A DNA stretch of 64,000 nucleotides, from contig JAJTHG010000017.1 of NCBI GenBank assembly GCA_021298835.1, forward strand, positions 1 to 64,000, written 5' to 3'. Under the pieces are notes generated by a model. It made no database searches and was not told the DNA's origin. It saw nothing but the letters and a program-made list of their open reading frames with translations. A program made the position numbers and the translations under genes. This document shows, one piece after another, positions 15,081 through 35,108 of this stretch. The stretch's first letter is position 1. The number at the start of each line of letters is the position of its first letter. This DNA comes from Gemmatimonadota bacterium (GTDB taxonomy: Bacteria; Gemmatimonadota; Gemmatimonadetes; Gemmatimonadales; Gemmatimonadaceae).

Positions 15081-15533
15081 ATGGCGCGCCGCACGCGGTT
15101 CCGGCTCGAGCGCCTGCTCGAGCTCAAGGCCAGGCACGAGGAGGCGAGTGCCGTCCGCCTTGGCCTCGCGGAGGCCGACGCGCGCCGCGAGCGCGAGGCG
15201 GAGGTCGCCCTGCGCACCCTGCGGGACGCAGGGCGCGAAGACCTGCTGCCCGGCGGCGTGACGCGCGTCGGCGACCTCCGGCCGGTTGCAGAGCTGCTCG
15301 CGCGCGTGGACGAACGCCTCGACCGGCAGGCCGAGCGCGTCGCCGCCGCCGAGCGCACGGTGCACGACGCGCAGCGGCTACTGGTCCTCGCGCACCAGGA
15401 ACGACGCGTGCTCGATCGCCTGCGAGAGAAGCACGTCGAACGCGTCCGACTCGAAGCGGCGCAAGCGGACCAGAAGACCACGGACGACATCGCCGTGGCC
15501 CGCTTCCTGCGCTCAAGGCCCCTCGACCCATGA
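15081..15533 (+). CDS. fliJ: Flagellar export chaperone FliJ
   Basis: The 150-residue protein is almost entirely coiled coil, opening with RTRFRLERLLELKARHEEAS, the typical FliJ N-terminal helix. Position between fliI and a MotE/YlxF-like gene is the conserved location of fliJ. It forms the central stalk of the export ATPase and helps load substrates. Two bases separate it from fliI, and its stop overlaps the next start. Confidence 0.88.
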   Translation: MARRTRFRLERLLELKARHEEASAVRLGLAEADARREREAEVALRTLRDAGREDLLPGGVTRVGDLRPVAELLARVDERLDRQAERVAAAERTVHDAQRLLVLAHQERRVLDRLREKHVERVRLEAAQADQKTTDDIAVARFLRSRPLDP

Positions 15534-16135
15534 TGACCCGGATGATTCTTCCGTTCCTCGCTGCGTTCATGATCGCCGTCGCCGGCGGCTCGGCCCTCGC
15601 GCTCCTCAAGGCGAAGGACGCGCACAGCGCGGCCCTCCAGCGCTTCGCCGAGCTCAAGGCCAAGGCCGACAGCACGCGGCCGCCGACCGCCACGGCGGAC
15701 AGTGCGGGGCACGCCGCGCACGATTCGATCGCGCACGCCGCGCCGCCGGCGAGCGCGCCGGTGCCCGTCACCGTCCCTCCGCCGGGCAAGCCCGGGCCGA
15801 CGGCGCCTCCCGTGCCCTCGCCCGCCCCCGCACCGCCGCCCCGGGCCGACATGCCCGCCGCCCCGACCGGTGACGGCCGCGCGCCGACCCCCGTCGCCGA
15901 GGCGGCCCAGGCCGTCGGTGCCGAGAAGCGGCTGTCGAAGATCTTCGCCTCGATGGCGCCGAAGGACGCGGCCAAGGTGCTGCAGCAGATGGATGACGCC
16001 GACGTGCGCGTGATCCTCGGCCACCTCGGTCCGCGCCAGGCCGCGGCGGTACTCGGCAACTTCCCCCCCGCGCGTGCCGCGACGCTCAGCCAGCAGCAGC
16101 TCAAGGGGCCCGCCGTCCGAGGGGGGACGCCCTGA
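15530..16135 (+). CDS. MotE/YlxF-like membrane protein with MgtE_N-type domain
   Basis: This 201-residue protein has a membrane anchor at about 5-26, a charged segment, a long proline/alanine linker (about 60-130) and a C-terminal helical domain (LSKIFASMAPKDAAKVLQQM, then VRVILGHLGPRQAAAVLGNF) of the MgtE N-domain type seen in MotE and in Bacillus YlxF. The fliJ - this gene - fliK order is the same as fliJ-ylxF-fliK in Bacillus. In Rhizobium, MotE chaperones a motility protein in the periplasm; the role here is inferred from that and from position. Confidence 0.8.
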   Translation: MMTRMILPFLAAFMIAVAGGSALALLKAKDAHSAALQRFAELKAKADSTRPPTATADSAGHAAHDSIAHAAPPASAPVPVTVPPPGKPGPTAPPVPSPAPAPPPRADMPAAPTGDGRAPTPVAEAAQAVGAEKRLSKIFASMAPKDAAKVLQQMDDADVRVILGHLGPRQAAAVLGNFPPARAATLSQQQLKGPAVRGGTP

Positions 16136-17844
16136 TGGGCGATGCCGTCAGGGCCGTCGGGCCGACCGGCACCTCGCCGTCGAGCGCGCGGCGCGCCGAG
16201 CGCGCGCACGACTTCCGCGCGACCGAGGAGGCCGCGTCGCTGGCCGCGTCGCTGGCCGAGTCGCGCGCCACTGACGCCACCGGCTTCGACCTGCTCTTCG
16301 CGGCGCTGCGGGACGAACCCGCCGCGTCCTCGACCGGCGCGCTCGCGCCGCCCACGGCGTCCGCGCGGTCCGTGCGATCCGGGTCGGTGTCCTCCGCCGG
16401 CGCTCGCGCGGTGGAATCGGCCTCGTATGCGGTGCGCTGGGACTTCATGCGCGGCACGGGCGCCTCGTCGCGCACGTCGCCCGCGAGCCGGGTCACCCCG
16501 GCGTCGTCGGCACGGGTTACCCGCGCCGAGGCCGACGATGCCGAAGAGGCCGACGAAGCGGCATCGGCGGACGCGGCGACCCGTGCGGACGATGCCGCAG
16601 CGCACGACGAGGCGGTCGTACCGCCGGCCGCGGTCCTCCCGCCGGCAGCCGTCCCGCCCACCCCGCTGGCCGTCGTGCCGCCCGTCGCCACGTCGTCGCA
16701 CGACGCCGCCCTCGCCACCGTCCAGCCGGCCCTGCGGGACCGGCTCGAGCGCGTGATCGAACGCATGCAGCGTGAGTTCGGCCACGACGTCCGCGTCGTC
16801 GAGGGGCGTCGGTCGCAGGCTCGGCAGGACGCCTTGTACGCGCAGGGTCGCACCGCCCCGGGACCGGTGGTGACGTGGACCCGCGATTCGGCGCACCGCG
16901 ACGGCGCCGCAGTGGATGTCATGATCAACGGCGGCTACGACGACGCCGCGGCGTTCCGCACGCTCGCCCGCATCGCCGCCGAGGAAGGTTTGCGGACGCT
17001 CGGGCCGCGCGATCCCGGCCACCTCGAGGTGGCGACCGCGCCGGACGCCGGCCCCGCGAGGGGGACGGCCGCGATGCCGTCCCCGGTCGCCGTGGTCGCC
17101 CGCGTGGCGTCGCCGGCGCCGGTCGCCGCGCCCGCCGCCGCGTCCGCCGCCGTGGCGTCGCCGGCACCGGTCGCCCGCGTGGCATCCCTCGGCGGTCGAC
17201 CGGGCGCCGGGAACGCGAGCCGTGACCGCACGTCGGGTCTGGAGCGCGAGCGGATGGAGGAACTCGCGGCGCGACTGGCGCCGCCGCTCGCCACCGGTTC
17301 GACGGGCGAGGGCACCGCGACCGTCCCGGTGGGGCAGCCCCGCGTGGACCTCACCGCCCGCCTCGAGGCCATCGCGCGCGTCCGTGACGCGCAGGCTGCC
17401 CAACCGCTCGCTCGGCTGGTGATGGACGTGCCCGACGACCTCGGTGGCGTGGACCGGATCGCGGTCTCGCTGCGAGGTCAGCGACTCGACGCTGCGCTCG
17501 CGATCCAGGACCCGGCGACCGCCTCGCGCGTCGCCGACCGCGTCGCACGGCTCGCCGAGGCGCTGGGCGCCCGCGGCTACGAGGCGGGCACGCTGTCCGT
17601 GACGACGGCGCGCGGCATCGCCCCCGAGTCGCTGGACCTCGTGCGCCTCGGCGCGCAGGCGCTCGAGCGCGAGGGCACGCGGGGCGTCGCGTCCATCCTC
17701 CAGGACGTGGCCGGTGCCGGGCTGCGCGAGCGGCACGCCGCACCGGGCCGTCAGGACGACCCGTCCACCCCGTCACGCGAGCACGACCGGCGCAGCGGTG
17801 ACACGCCGCGTCGCCAGTCGCGCCGCGACCCCGGAGACCGCTGA
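16135..17844 (+). CDS. fliK: Hook-length control protein FliK with embedded M15-type peptidase domain
   Basis: The protein has 569 residues. Residues 1-195 are low-complexity, as usual for FliK rulers. Residues about 200-300 are an M15/VanY-like zinc peptidase: GRRSQARQDALYAQGR, then SAHRDGAAVDV and DPGHLEV, giving metal ligands H254, D261, H296 and catalytic D293. The spacing is that of T5-endolysin and CwlK-type L-alanyl-D-glutamate or D-Ala endopeptidases. Residues about 415-500 are the FliK C-terminal switch domain (VPDDLGGVDRIAVSLRGQRL). The gene lies between a motE-like gene and flgD, the normal fliK site. FliK is secreted through the export gate, so the peptidase would reach the periplasm. 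The neighbouring FlgJ lacks its own wall hydrolase domain. No stop or frame break separates the domains. Confidence 0.85.
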   Translation: MGDAVRAVGPTGTSPSSARRAERAHDFRATEEAASLAASLAESRATDATGFDLLFAALRDEPAASSTGALAPPTASARSVRSGSVSSAGARAVESASYAVRWDFMRGTGASSRTSPASRVTPASSARVTRAEADDAEEADEAASADAATRADDAAAHDEAVVPPAAVLPPAAVPPTPLAVVPPVATSSHDAALATVQPALRDRLERVIERMQREFGHDVRVVEGRRSQARQDALYAQGRTAPGPVVTWTRDSAHRDGAAVDVMINGGYDDAAAFRTLARIAAEEGLRTLGPRDPGHLEVATAPDAGPARGTAAMPSPVAVVARVASPAPVAAPAAASAAVASPAPVARVASLGGRPGAGNASRDRTSGLERERMEELAARLAPPLATGSTGEGTATVPVGQPRVDLTARLEAIARVRDAQAAQPLARLVMDVPDDLGGVDRIAVSLRGQRLDAALAIQDPATASRVADRVARLAEALGARGYEAGTLSVTTARGIAPESLDLVRLGAQALEREGTRGVASILQDVAGAGLRERHAAPGRQDDPSTPSREHDRRSGDTPRRQSRRDPGDR

Positions 17845-18510
17845 GTGACCGCACCCGTCATCCCGGCCGCCACCGCCGGGACCACCGCTGCCCCCGCAGG
17901 GCGCAATCCGAAGTCCGTTCTGGGGAAGGACGAGTTCCTGAAGCTGCTCGTCGCGCAGCTCAAGAACCAGGATCCCACCAACCCGATGGACGGCCAGCAG
18001 ATGGCCGCGCAGCTCGCGCAGTTCTCGAGCGTCGAGCAGCTCATCGCGATCAACGAGAAGCTCGGGGCGCAGGCGACCACCGACGACGCCACCGCGAAGG
18101 CGATCAGCAACTCGACGGCCATCGCCGCGATCGGCAAGACCGTCACGGCGCTCGGCAACCAGGTCGAGCTCCCGGCCGCCGATGCGCGCGTGCGCGGGAT
18201 CGTGCAGGGCACGGGGCAGGGTACGCTCTCGCTGCGCGACGCCAACGGCACGATCGTCGCCAGGCGCGACCTCGGCCTCGTGCGGGCCGGCGACCAGTCG
18301 TTCGCTCTTGGCGACCTCGCCGCCGGCCTTCCCGCAGGCACCTACACCTGGCAGCTCGACGTCCGCACCGCGCAGGGCGCGACGGTTCCCGTGACGCCGT
18401 TCATCACGGGCCGCGTCACCGGCGTCGAGTACGGTCCCGGCGGCGCGATGCTCGTCGCGGGCCGCCTCCGCATCCCCGTCGGCACCGTCGTGTCGCTCGG
18501 CACCCCGTAA
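17845..18510 (+). CDS. flgD: Hook-cap protein FlgD
   Basis: The 221-residue protein has a GTG start directly after the fliK stop. The N-terminal motif [20 protein letters not shown], followed by [20 protein letters not shown], is diagnostic of FlgD. The C-terminus carries the FlgD Ig-like and Tudor-like region ([20 protein letters not shown]). It forms the temporary cap under which FlgE hook subunits assemble. Confidence 0.96.
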
Positions 18511-33724: not shown

Positions 33725-34806
33725 TCTACCGCGTACACTGCCCCCGGCAACGCCGCGCGCGCCAGCGCATCGTGCTCTGGCTCACGCTCGGTGCCTTCCT
33801 CCTTGGCCTGCTGCTGCCCCGCGACGCGCGCGCGCAGGATCCGCGCATCCGCGACCTCACGCTGCAGCAGGGGGCGGCACCGGTGCGGCTGGTCGGTTAC
33901 GGCCTCGTCGTGGGCCTCGACGGCACCGGCGACCGCGCCATGGCCGGCCGCGGGATGGGCCAGACGGTGCTCTCGATCGCCAACCTGCTGCGCCGCTTCC
34001 AGGTCGAGGTGCCGGCCGAGGTGCTGCAGCCGCGGAACGTCGCGGCCGTGATGGTCACCGCCGAGGTCTCGCCCTTCCTGCGCGCGGGCGGCCGGTTCGA
34101 CGTCTCCGTCGCCTCGCTCGGCGACGCGCGCTCGCTCAAGGGCGGCGTCCTCTTCGTGACGCCGCTCCTCGCCGACGTCGGCGGGCCGGCCGTGGCGAGC
34201 GCGCAGGGCCCGATGCTGCTCAGCGACGGCTCGTCGCCGCGCGACCTGACCGGCCCGGTCGAGACGTCCGGCCGCATTCCGCAGGGCGGCATGATCGAGC
34301 TCGACCTCCCGCGCCCGACGCTCGCCGACGACAGCAAGCTGCTCCTGCGCGAACCCGACCTCGCGACCGCCTCGCGCATCGCCTCGGTCATCGACTCGGT
34401 CATCGGCAAGGGCACGGCGACCGTCGAGGACGACGGCGCGGTCGCGCTCGCCATCACCGCGTCCGGGACCGAGCGCGCCGCGACCCTCGCCCGCATCCGT
34501 TCGCTGCGCGTGCGGCCCGAGCGCGCGGCCCGGGTGGTCATCGACGGCCGCGACGGCACCATTGTCGCCGGCGGCGATCTGGTGCTCTCCGAGGCGCTCG
34601 TGTCGCACGGCCCCGTGACGCTCACGATCGGCCAGCCCGCCGACAGTACCGCCACCCGCGGCGACGTCCGCCTGCCCAACGGCGTGTCCGTCCAGCGCGT
34701 GGCCTCGGCGCTGCACGCGGTCCAGGTGACGCCGGGCGAAATCGCCGCGATCTTCGCCTCCCTCAAGGAAGTGGGGGCGCTGGCGGCCGAGGTGATCGTC
34801 CGATGA
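33721..34806 (+). CDS. flgI: P-ring protein FlgI
   Basis: The protein has 361 residues from the GTG at 33721 (overlapping the flgH stop; 33709 is an alternative). A signal peptide ends near DARAQ, then RIRDLTLQQGAAPVRLVGYG, LVVGLDGTGDR and LQPRNVAAVMVTAEVSPFLR mark FlgI. It builds the periplasmic bushing around the rod. The stop overlaps the flgJ ATG. Confidence 0.97.
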   Translation: MIYRVHCPRQRRARQRIVLWLTLGAFLLGLLLPRDARAQDPRIRDLTLQQGAAPVRLVGYGLVVGLDGTGDRAMAGRGMGQTVLSIANLLRRFQVEVPAEVLQPRNVAAVMVTAEVSPFLRAGGRFDVSVASLGDARSLKGGVLFVTPLLADVGGPAVASAQGPMLLSDGSSPRDLTGPVETSGRIPQGGMIELDLPRPTLADDSKLLLREPDLATASRIASVIDSVIGKGTATVEDDGAVALAITASGTERAATLARIRSLRVRPERAARVVIDGRDGTIVAGGDLVLSEALVSHGPVTLTIGQPADSTATRGDVRLPNGVSVQRVASALHAVQVTPGEIAAIFASLKEVGALAAEVIVR

Positions 34807-35108
34807 CCCTGCGTCCCGCCGCCGGCGCGCCGCCCCTCGCGGCCCTCGCGCCCGACCGCGACGCGCGTCTGCGCGAGACCGCGGTCCAGCTCGAGGGGAT
34901 GTTCGTCACCCAACTCTATCAGGCCATGCGGACCACAGTGCCGGACGACGGCCTCATCGCCGGCGGATCGGGCGCGGCGATGTTCACCGGCCTGCTCGAC
35001 GAGCATCTCGCGGCCCGGACCCCGGAGCGCTGGGGCGGACACGGCCTCGCCGACGCGCTCGTGCGGCAGCTTCGCGGACTCGCCCCCGCGCCGGAGGCGC
35101 AGCCGTGA
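34803..35108 (+). CDS. flgJ: Rod-capping protein FlgJ, rod-binding domain only
   Basis: The 101-residue protein corresponds to the N-terminal rod-binding domain: LRETAVQLEGMFVTQLYQAM, then GGSGAAMFTGLLDEHLA. The C-terminal glucosaminidase domain of gamma-proteobacterial FlgJ (total about 310 residues) is absent. A separate peptidoglycan hydrolase is therefore needed for rod passage; the M15 domain in FliK is a candidate. It overlaps flgI and flgN by four bases each. Confidence 0.93.
   Translation: MTLRPAAGAPPLAALAPDRDARLRETAVQLEGMFVTQLYQAMRTTVPDDGLIAGGSGAAMFTGLLDEHLAARTPERWGGHGLADALVRQLRGLAPAPEAQP

Follow-up and report, generated by a model that had tools for sequence, protein, structure and literature searches.

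To our knowledge, FlgJ-type and SltF-type lineages are the only ones for which it has been worked out how a growing flagellum cuts through the cell wall without lysis. The opening is needed for the rod, i.e., prior to hook measurement. The fliK locus of a Gemmatimonadota bacterium (contig JAJTHG010000017.1) raises the question of whether the hook-length ruler can itself carry a wall-cutting enzyme, since a sequence-only reading of the window (the whole stretch of 64,000 nucleotides that was analyzed) had proposed that an M15-type zinc peptidase domain is embedded in its FliK.

The fusion is encoded by a single uninterrupted open reading frame of 569 amino acids (Table 1), which rules out the possibility, raised earlier, that a frameshift had joined two genes. 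The motifs quoted for it and the residue numbers H254, D261, D293, and H296 were exact. The gene lies in the standard order fliI-fliJ-motE-fliK-flgD-flgE, which is the same in the window and in related genomes, and its flagellar neighbors comprise fliI, fliJ, a motE-like gene, flgD, flgE, fliL, and fliM. The Flg_hook match of the window protein scores 22.7 bits, below the Pfam cut-off of 29.8, and the same model matches 15 of the 17 members of its family, with a best E value of 1.1e-9. When the C-terminal part was modeled with AlphaFold2, the two best fold matches in the PDB were the substrate-specificity domain of PscP (5cuk) and Salmonella FliK (2rrl), at modest E values of 0.003 to 0.007. 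The Flg_hook matches, the fold matches, and synteny thus bear out the proposed switch domain at the C terminus. Inspection by eye revealed no obvious Sec signal in the N terminus. The window protein is a genuine FliK that carries an embedded M15 domain with all of the catalytic-site residues.

Table 1. Positions of the fliK-M15 fusion, its parts, and marker genes in the window
Feature	Coordinates	Strand	Evidence or remark
motE-like gene upstream of fliK, synteny marker	15530..16135	+	Weak FliG_M/MgtE_N matches; other genomes have homologues in this position
fliK-M15 fusion gene	16135..17844	+	Intact ORF; Flg_hook aa 433-492, M15 ~aa 193-300
Low-complexity N terminus (aa 1-192), which presumably holds the export signal and ruler part	16135..16710	+	Sequence; inferred from FliK biology
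M15-type L-Ala-D-Glu endopeptidase-like domain aa 193-300	16711..17034	+	PHROGs, PDB profile match, AF2, Foldseek
H254, predicted Zn ligand	16894..16896	+	H in 74/75 homologues, Q in one
D261, predicted Zn ligand	16915..16917	+	75/75 homologues
D293, predicted catalytic acid/base	17011..17013	+	75/75; role by analogy with M15C enzymes
H296, predicted Zn ligand	17020..17022	+	75/75 homologues
Degenerate (Val-Ala-x)n linker element, VAVVARVAS ... VARVAS	17086..17187	+	Strong tandem form in 57/65 relatives
FliK C-terminal substrate-specificity switch (T3S4) domain, modeled aa 398-506	17326..17652	+	Flg_hook E 8.8e-5; AF2 pLDDT 81.7; fold matches 5cuk, 2rrl
flgD, synteny marker	17845..18510	+	Pfam FlgD E 2e-24
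flgJ, 101 aa, rod-binding domain only, without hydrolase domain	34803..35108	+	Pfam Rod-binding E 1.2e-11

The embedded domain was confirmed by PHROGs, profile, and structural comparisons. PHROGs endolysin families match approximately residues 191 to 317 (phrog_6523, E = 3.5e-16; phrog_465, E = 1.9e-13; phrog_2649, E = 8.9e-13) and do so in all 17 members of the first family alignment, and a profile of the M15 domain finds Ply500 (2vo9, E = 3.1e-11) and LysB4 (6akv, E = 4e-11) among PDB sequences. An AlphaFold2 model built with a 75-sequence alignment has the M15 fold that had been anticipated (pLDDT of 91.3, pTM of 0.81). Its best PDB match by Foldseek is again Ply500 (2vo9, E = 3.6e-8, TM score of 0.77 on the query), followed in order by LysB4, LysECD7, VanXY, Serratia ChiX, LdcB, T5 endolysin, VanY, and VanX, with Hedgehog as a more distant match; the whole set corresponds to the LAS/M15 superfamily. 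Endolysins and M15 peptidases make up most of the top-ranking named matches in a viral structure library. The FliK domain is shorter than Ply500.

The window protein matches neither PF08291 nor PF13539, the two Pfam models that had been suggested for checking the domain. No curated M15 family cut-off is reached, since VanY (PF02557) is below threshold with an E value of 0.055, M15_3 and M15_4 give no match, and the NCBIfam matches of the domain, to vanXY, are weak; among the 17 family members, VanY matches four and Peptidase_M15_3 matches one. Because Pfam and NCBIfam alone are too weak, the identity of the domain rests on the fold prediction and PHROGs, which place it as a divergent branch of M15. 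The strength of these matches is far beyond chance, and the nearest relatives by both sequence and fold are the phage L-Ala-D-Glu endopeptidases (Ply500, LysB4, and T5).

The predicted active site is retained across the fusions. In 75 aligned fused homologues, H254 is kept in 74, and D261, D293, and H296 are kept in all 75, which agrees with the proposal that orthologues would share the H/D/H residues; R226, R230, W248, and S252 are likewise each present in 75/75. The lone fusion that has Q in place of H254 (L062:3974-4318) is either a natural mutant or an assembly error. In a scan of 84,980 species genomes, relatives were picked out by motifs that overlap R230/Q231/L234 and D293/G295/H296, and conservation at these positions is therefore inflated in that set; the same residues appear in the two sets that are free of this bias, namely, the 17-member family set, found with the whole FliK protein as the query, and the phylum profile search. 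Within the 17 members, no other part of the protein is nearly as well conserved as the M15 domain, whose Zn-site residues, S-x-H-x2-G-x-A-x-D ... D-x-G-H-x-E, are invariant. In close pairs, the M15 domain has a lower dN/dS than the switch domain (e.g., 0.004/0.16 versus 0.015/0.15), so purifying selection on these pairs is stronger on the former. Values over all pairs were set aside because they are saturated in genes of such high GC content, and close pairs alone were used.

The nearest sequences outside FliK are phage endolysins and their prophage or cellular relatives, at 38 to 51% identity. In a tree of M15 domains, the FliK domains and four free-standing proteins from family f6 are separated from the phage endolysins with moderate branch support (87/85), with the four f6 proteins sitting on a very long branch among the FliK domains. 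The FliK domain is likely a domesticated phage lysin; the tree leaves donor and direction undecided because the f6 proteins attach by such a long branch. These f6 proteins (L294-L297) are encoded in genomes without FliP, in frames of 373 to 446 amino acids, and carry a DPGHVY motif. The same profile search also found an M15 protein in genome G604 (L312) that adjoins a TssM/IcmF-like type VI secretion gene and is likely a TagX-like enzyme.

A second element accompanies the domain. In 57/65 fusions, a tandem (Val-Ala-x)n run lies between the M15 and switch domains, with n of 3 to 8 and x mostly R, Q, G, or S, whereas only 0.04 would be expected from shuffled sequences. It usually lies 13 to 60 residues after the M15 domain and never precedes it. 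The window FliK has a weaker form. The run is absent from four FliKs of family f2 that lack M15 and from the decayed FliK of G025 (see below), such that, as judged by co-occurrence, it seems to go together with the enzyme domain.

The search of related genomes that had been suggested showed that the fusion is recurrent. When a fusion-type domain was defined by E < 1e-38, it was found in 65 of 81 FliP-positive genomes and in 0 of 216 FliP-negative genomes among 297 Gemmatimonadota (Fisher P = 1e-50, phylogeny ignored); all 65 genomes with the domain have FliP. Most of the genomes surveyed are metagenome-assembled genomes (MAGs). The scan of 84,980 species genomes recovered 70 domain-encoding loci labeled or placed as Gemmatimonadota, and every intact one whose contig extends as far as the switch domain is a FliK fusion. 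Among these 70 loci, one is labeled Planctomycetota (L095/L302) and one Candidatus Kuenenia (L042); both MAG contigs look like Gemmatimonadota contigs that were mislabeled or mis-binned. The Planctomycetota-labeled copy has an in-frame TAG inside its M15 domain. The fusion was found in none of 349 sampled Pseudomonadota genomes, and 149 genomes from the phylum of the Planctomycetota-labeled MAG contain none besides that MAG's own, mis-binned-looking contig. Divergent fusions may exist outside the Gemmatimonadota.

The 16 FliP-positive genomes without the fusion-type domain are G025, seven members of family f2, five of f11, and G185, G202, and G216. The last three were rejected as losses, since their contigs end before or at fliK, i.e., they reflect assembly gaps. 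For four of the seven f2 genomes a FliK is assembled, and all four lack M15. In G025 (f1), the FliK (L153:4833-6554, minus strand) has a recognizable but decayed M15 domain that has lost its Zn ligands, while the flagellar genes remain; its congener G112 has an intact domain, making G025 a natural loss-of-enzyme case. Since the f2 FliKs and the decayed G025 copy keep the switch domain, one carrier appears to bear two functions, ruler and peptidase, that can be separated.

The hydrolases carried by FlgJ have a complementary, albeit not absolute, distribution. The sequence-only reading had noted that FlgJ in the window lacks a hydrolase domain, and this was borne out: the protein has the rod-binding domain only, as do the other FlgJs inspected in the fusion-bearing group. 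GH73 was rejected as an alternative hydrolase, as no GH73 domain was found in any of the 80 flagellated Gemmatimonadota genomes scanned. In the five genomes of the deep sister lineage f11, FlgJ instead carries a C-terminal SLT transglycosylase domain (L161, L165, L174, L179, and L184; Pfam E values of 7.3e-30 and 8e-31 in the two tested), unlike the FlgJ-GH73 of proteobacteria, and M15 of this type is absent. The carriers thus clearly alternate inside one phylum, with FlgJ-SLT in f11 and FliK-M15 elsewhere. The alternation is not absolute because family f2 has neither: its clusters (L138, L139, L140, L144, and L185-L194) are flagellated, Pfam found no hydrolase domain in four f2 FliKs and one FlgJ, and no extra hydrolase gene was recognized in the gene calls of the clusters from G055, G051, G053, and G140. 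The job is therefore either dispensable in f2 or done by another enzyme.

Several known systems resemble parts of this arrangement. In beta- and gammaproteobacteria, FlgJ is a rod cap fused to a GH73 glucosaminidase (PMC4752226, PMC8517470), and it shares with FliK-M15 the principle of a rod/hook-class export substrate with a fused peptidoglycan hydrolase that is exported to open the cell's own wall. Here, in contrast, the carrier is FliK, the enzyme is an M15-type peptidase rather than a glycosidase, and FlgJ is a single-domain protein. SltF and BB0259 are separate flagellar lytic transglycosylases that work with single-domain FlgJ (PMC8517470) and are likewise a solution where FlgJ has no hydrolase domain; they are distinct, glycan-cutting proteins, whereas the enzyme here is part of FliK and would cut peptides, and BB0259 further differs in having a predicted lipoprotein signal. 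In Acinetobacter, TagX, a Ply500/CwlK-like L,D-endopeptidase that cuts between L-Ala and D-Glu, is required for biogenesis of the type VI secretion system and needed for it to cross the producer's own wall (PMC5061870). TagX is therefore a precedent for a Ply500/CwlK-like enzyme that lets a trans-envelope machine through the producer's wall, although it is a membrane-anchored, dedicated enzyme of that system and is not fused to an exported ruler.

The phage M15 endolysins (Ply500, 2vo9; LysB4, 6akv; T5, 2mxz; PHROG 6523, 465, and 2649) have the same fold as FliK-M15 and share its Zn-site motif, SxHxxGxAxD ... DxxH, and the region QGRTxPGxVVT. Unlike them, the FliK domain sits in a flagellar ruler, is vertically kept in one phylum, and has no holin or cell-wall-binding context. 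With the FliK/PscP switch (T3S4) proteins, the window FliK shares the C-terminal fold and gene neighborhood, but it also carries an enzyme-type domain. We found no description in the open-license literature of a FliK with an M15, peptidase, or peptidoglycan hydrolase domain, including in Gemmatimonas or Gemmatimonadetes. Since fused flagellar hydrolases are already known from FlgJ, what is new here is the carrier, FliK, and the enzyme class.

Taken together, our analyses indicate that FliK-M15 is probably exported through the flagellar gate and opens the peptidoglycan for the rod. In the mechanism that we propose, an M15 peptidase derived from a phage endolysin would have been inserted between the low-complexity N terminus and the switch domain of FliK. 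The protein would pass the flagellar type III gate unfolded, and copies secreted while the rod is still periplasmic would refold there and bind zinc. The refolded domain would cut the L-Ala-D-Glu bond, or a similar bond of the peptide stem, at the growing rod tip and so open the wall. FliK-M15 would thereby replace the glycan-cutting domain that FlgJ elsewhere carries or recruits, and the C-terminal domain would retain its usual role as the hook-length switch. In Salmonella, secretion of FliK is continuous while the rod and the hook are built, and beta-lactamase fused to FliK shows periplasmic activity, which is highest in mutants that stop short of the outer membrane (PMC13344023); an enzyme carried on FliK can therefore enter the periplasm during the rod stage and regain its fold there. 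For FliK-M15, catalysis, the bond that is cut, delivery to the periplasm, and its timing are what we infer, and the view that the flagellar gate delivers an active enzyme that cuts the wall has good, if indirect, support. The sequence-only reading had gone further and coupled hook-length sensing to wall opening. This coupling is unsupported because the rod crosses the wall before the hook is measured and because f2 and G025 show that the two functions can be separated.

The domain might instead have another bond specificity, such as that of a D,D- or L,D-carboxypeptidase of the VanXY/VanY type, and remodel, rather than open, the wall where the basal body sits, for instance to anchor the P-ring or stator. 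We consider this unlikely, although worth keeping in mind: the structures of VanXY, VanY, and LdcB are the next fold matches and the weak NCBIfam matches are to vanXY, whereas the closest proteins in both sequence and fold are L-Ala-D-Glu endopeptidases. That the M15 domain is a catalytically idle folded module serving ruler mechanics, by slowing export, contacting the hook cap, or setting length, strikes us as quite improbable. Folded parts do occur in other rulers, both folding and the rate of export matter for FliK function (PMC13344023), and the conserved (VAx)n linker suggests an additional structural constraint; an idle module, however, would hardly account for Zn ligands and a non-ligand catalytic residue, D293, that are kept in 74 to 75 of 75 homologues, nor for its absence or decay in FliKs that retain the switch domain.

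An active enzyme could also act outside the cell or at a later time, with shed FliK attacking the walls of neighbors or released muropeptides, or with the domain trimming the wall that surrounds the mature hook-basal body. In Salmonella, FliK is released from the cell after the hook has emerged. This exit and the associated secretion data (PMC13344023), together with the phage-lysin type of the domain, lend this explanation some plausibility, but we give it little credence, as FliK-M15 has no cell-binding domain, few molecules are available per flagellum, and no immunity-like partner was noticed beside fliK. A role in assembly is instead suggested by the co-distribution with a FlgJ that lacks a hydrolase and by f11, where FlgJ-SLT is the alternative. 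Finally, both Pfam matches of the window protein are below cut-off, as they might be if the resemblance were due to chance or to an artefact such as two wrongly joined genes. The high-confidence fold and the profile E values refute this explanation, and the same fusion recurs in dozens of independent assemblies, single-contig genomes included, so that its probability is vanishingly small.

On balance, we lean toward regarding FliK-M15 as the first secretion-system ruler that is itself an enzyme, in which a domesticated phage endolysin domain would cut the wall for the rod. The function would have moved between carriers in one phylum, with a FlgJ-transglycosylase in f11, a FliK-peptidase in the Gemmatimonadaceae and relatives, and neither in f2, and with a co-occurring (Val-Ala-x)n linker. 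The idea is testable, since cultured Gemmatimonas hosts probably exist. It appears that an entire clade opens the wall by a different chemistry, cleaving peptides rather than glycans, and with the ruler as a different carrier. If this is true, rulers of type III secretion systems can deliver enzymes in nature, and the Gemmatimonadota would represent a natural experiment in swapping flagellar hydrolases.
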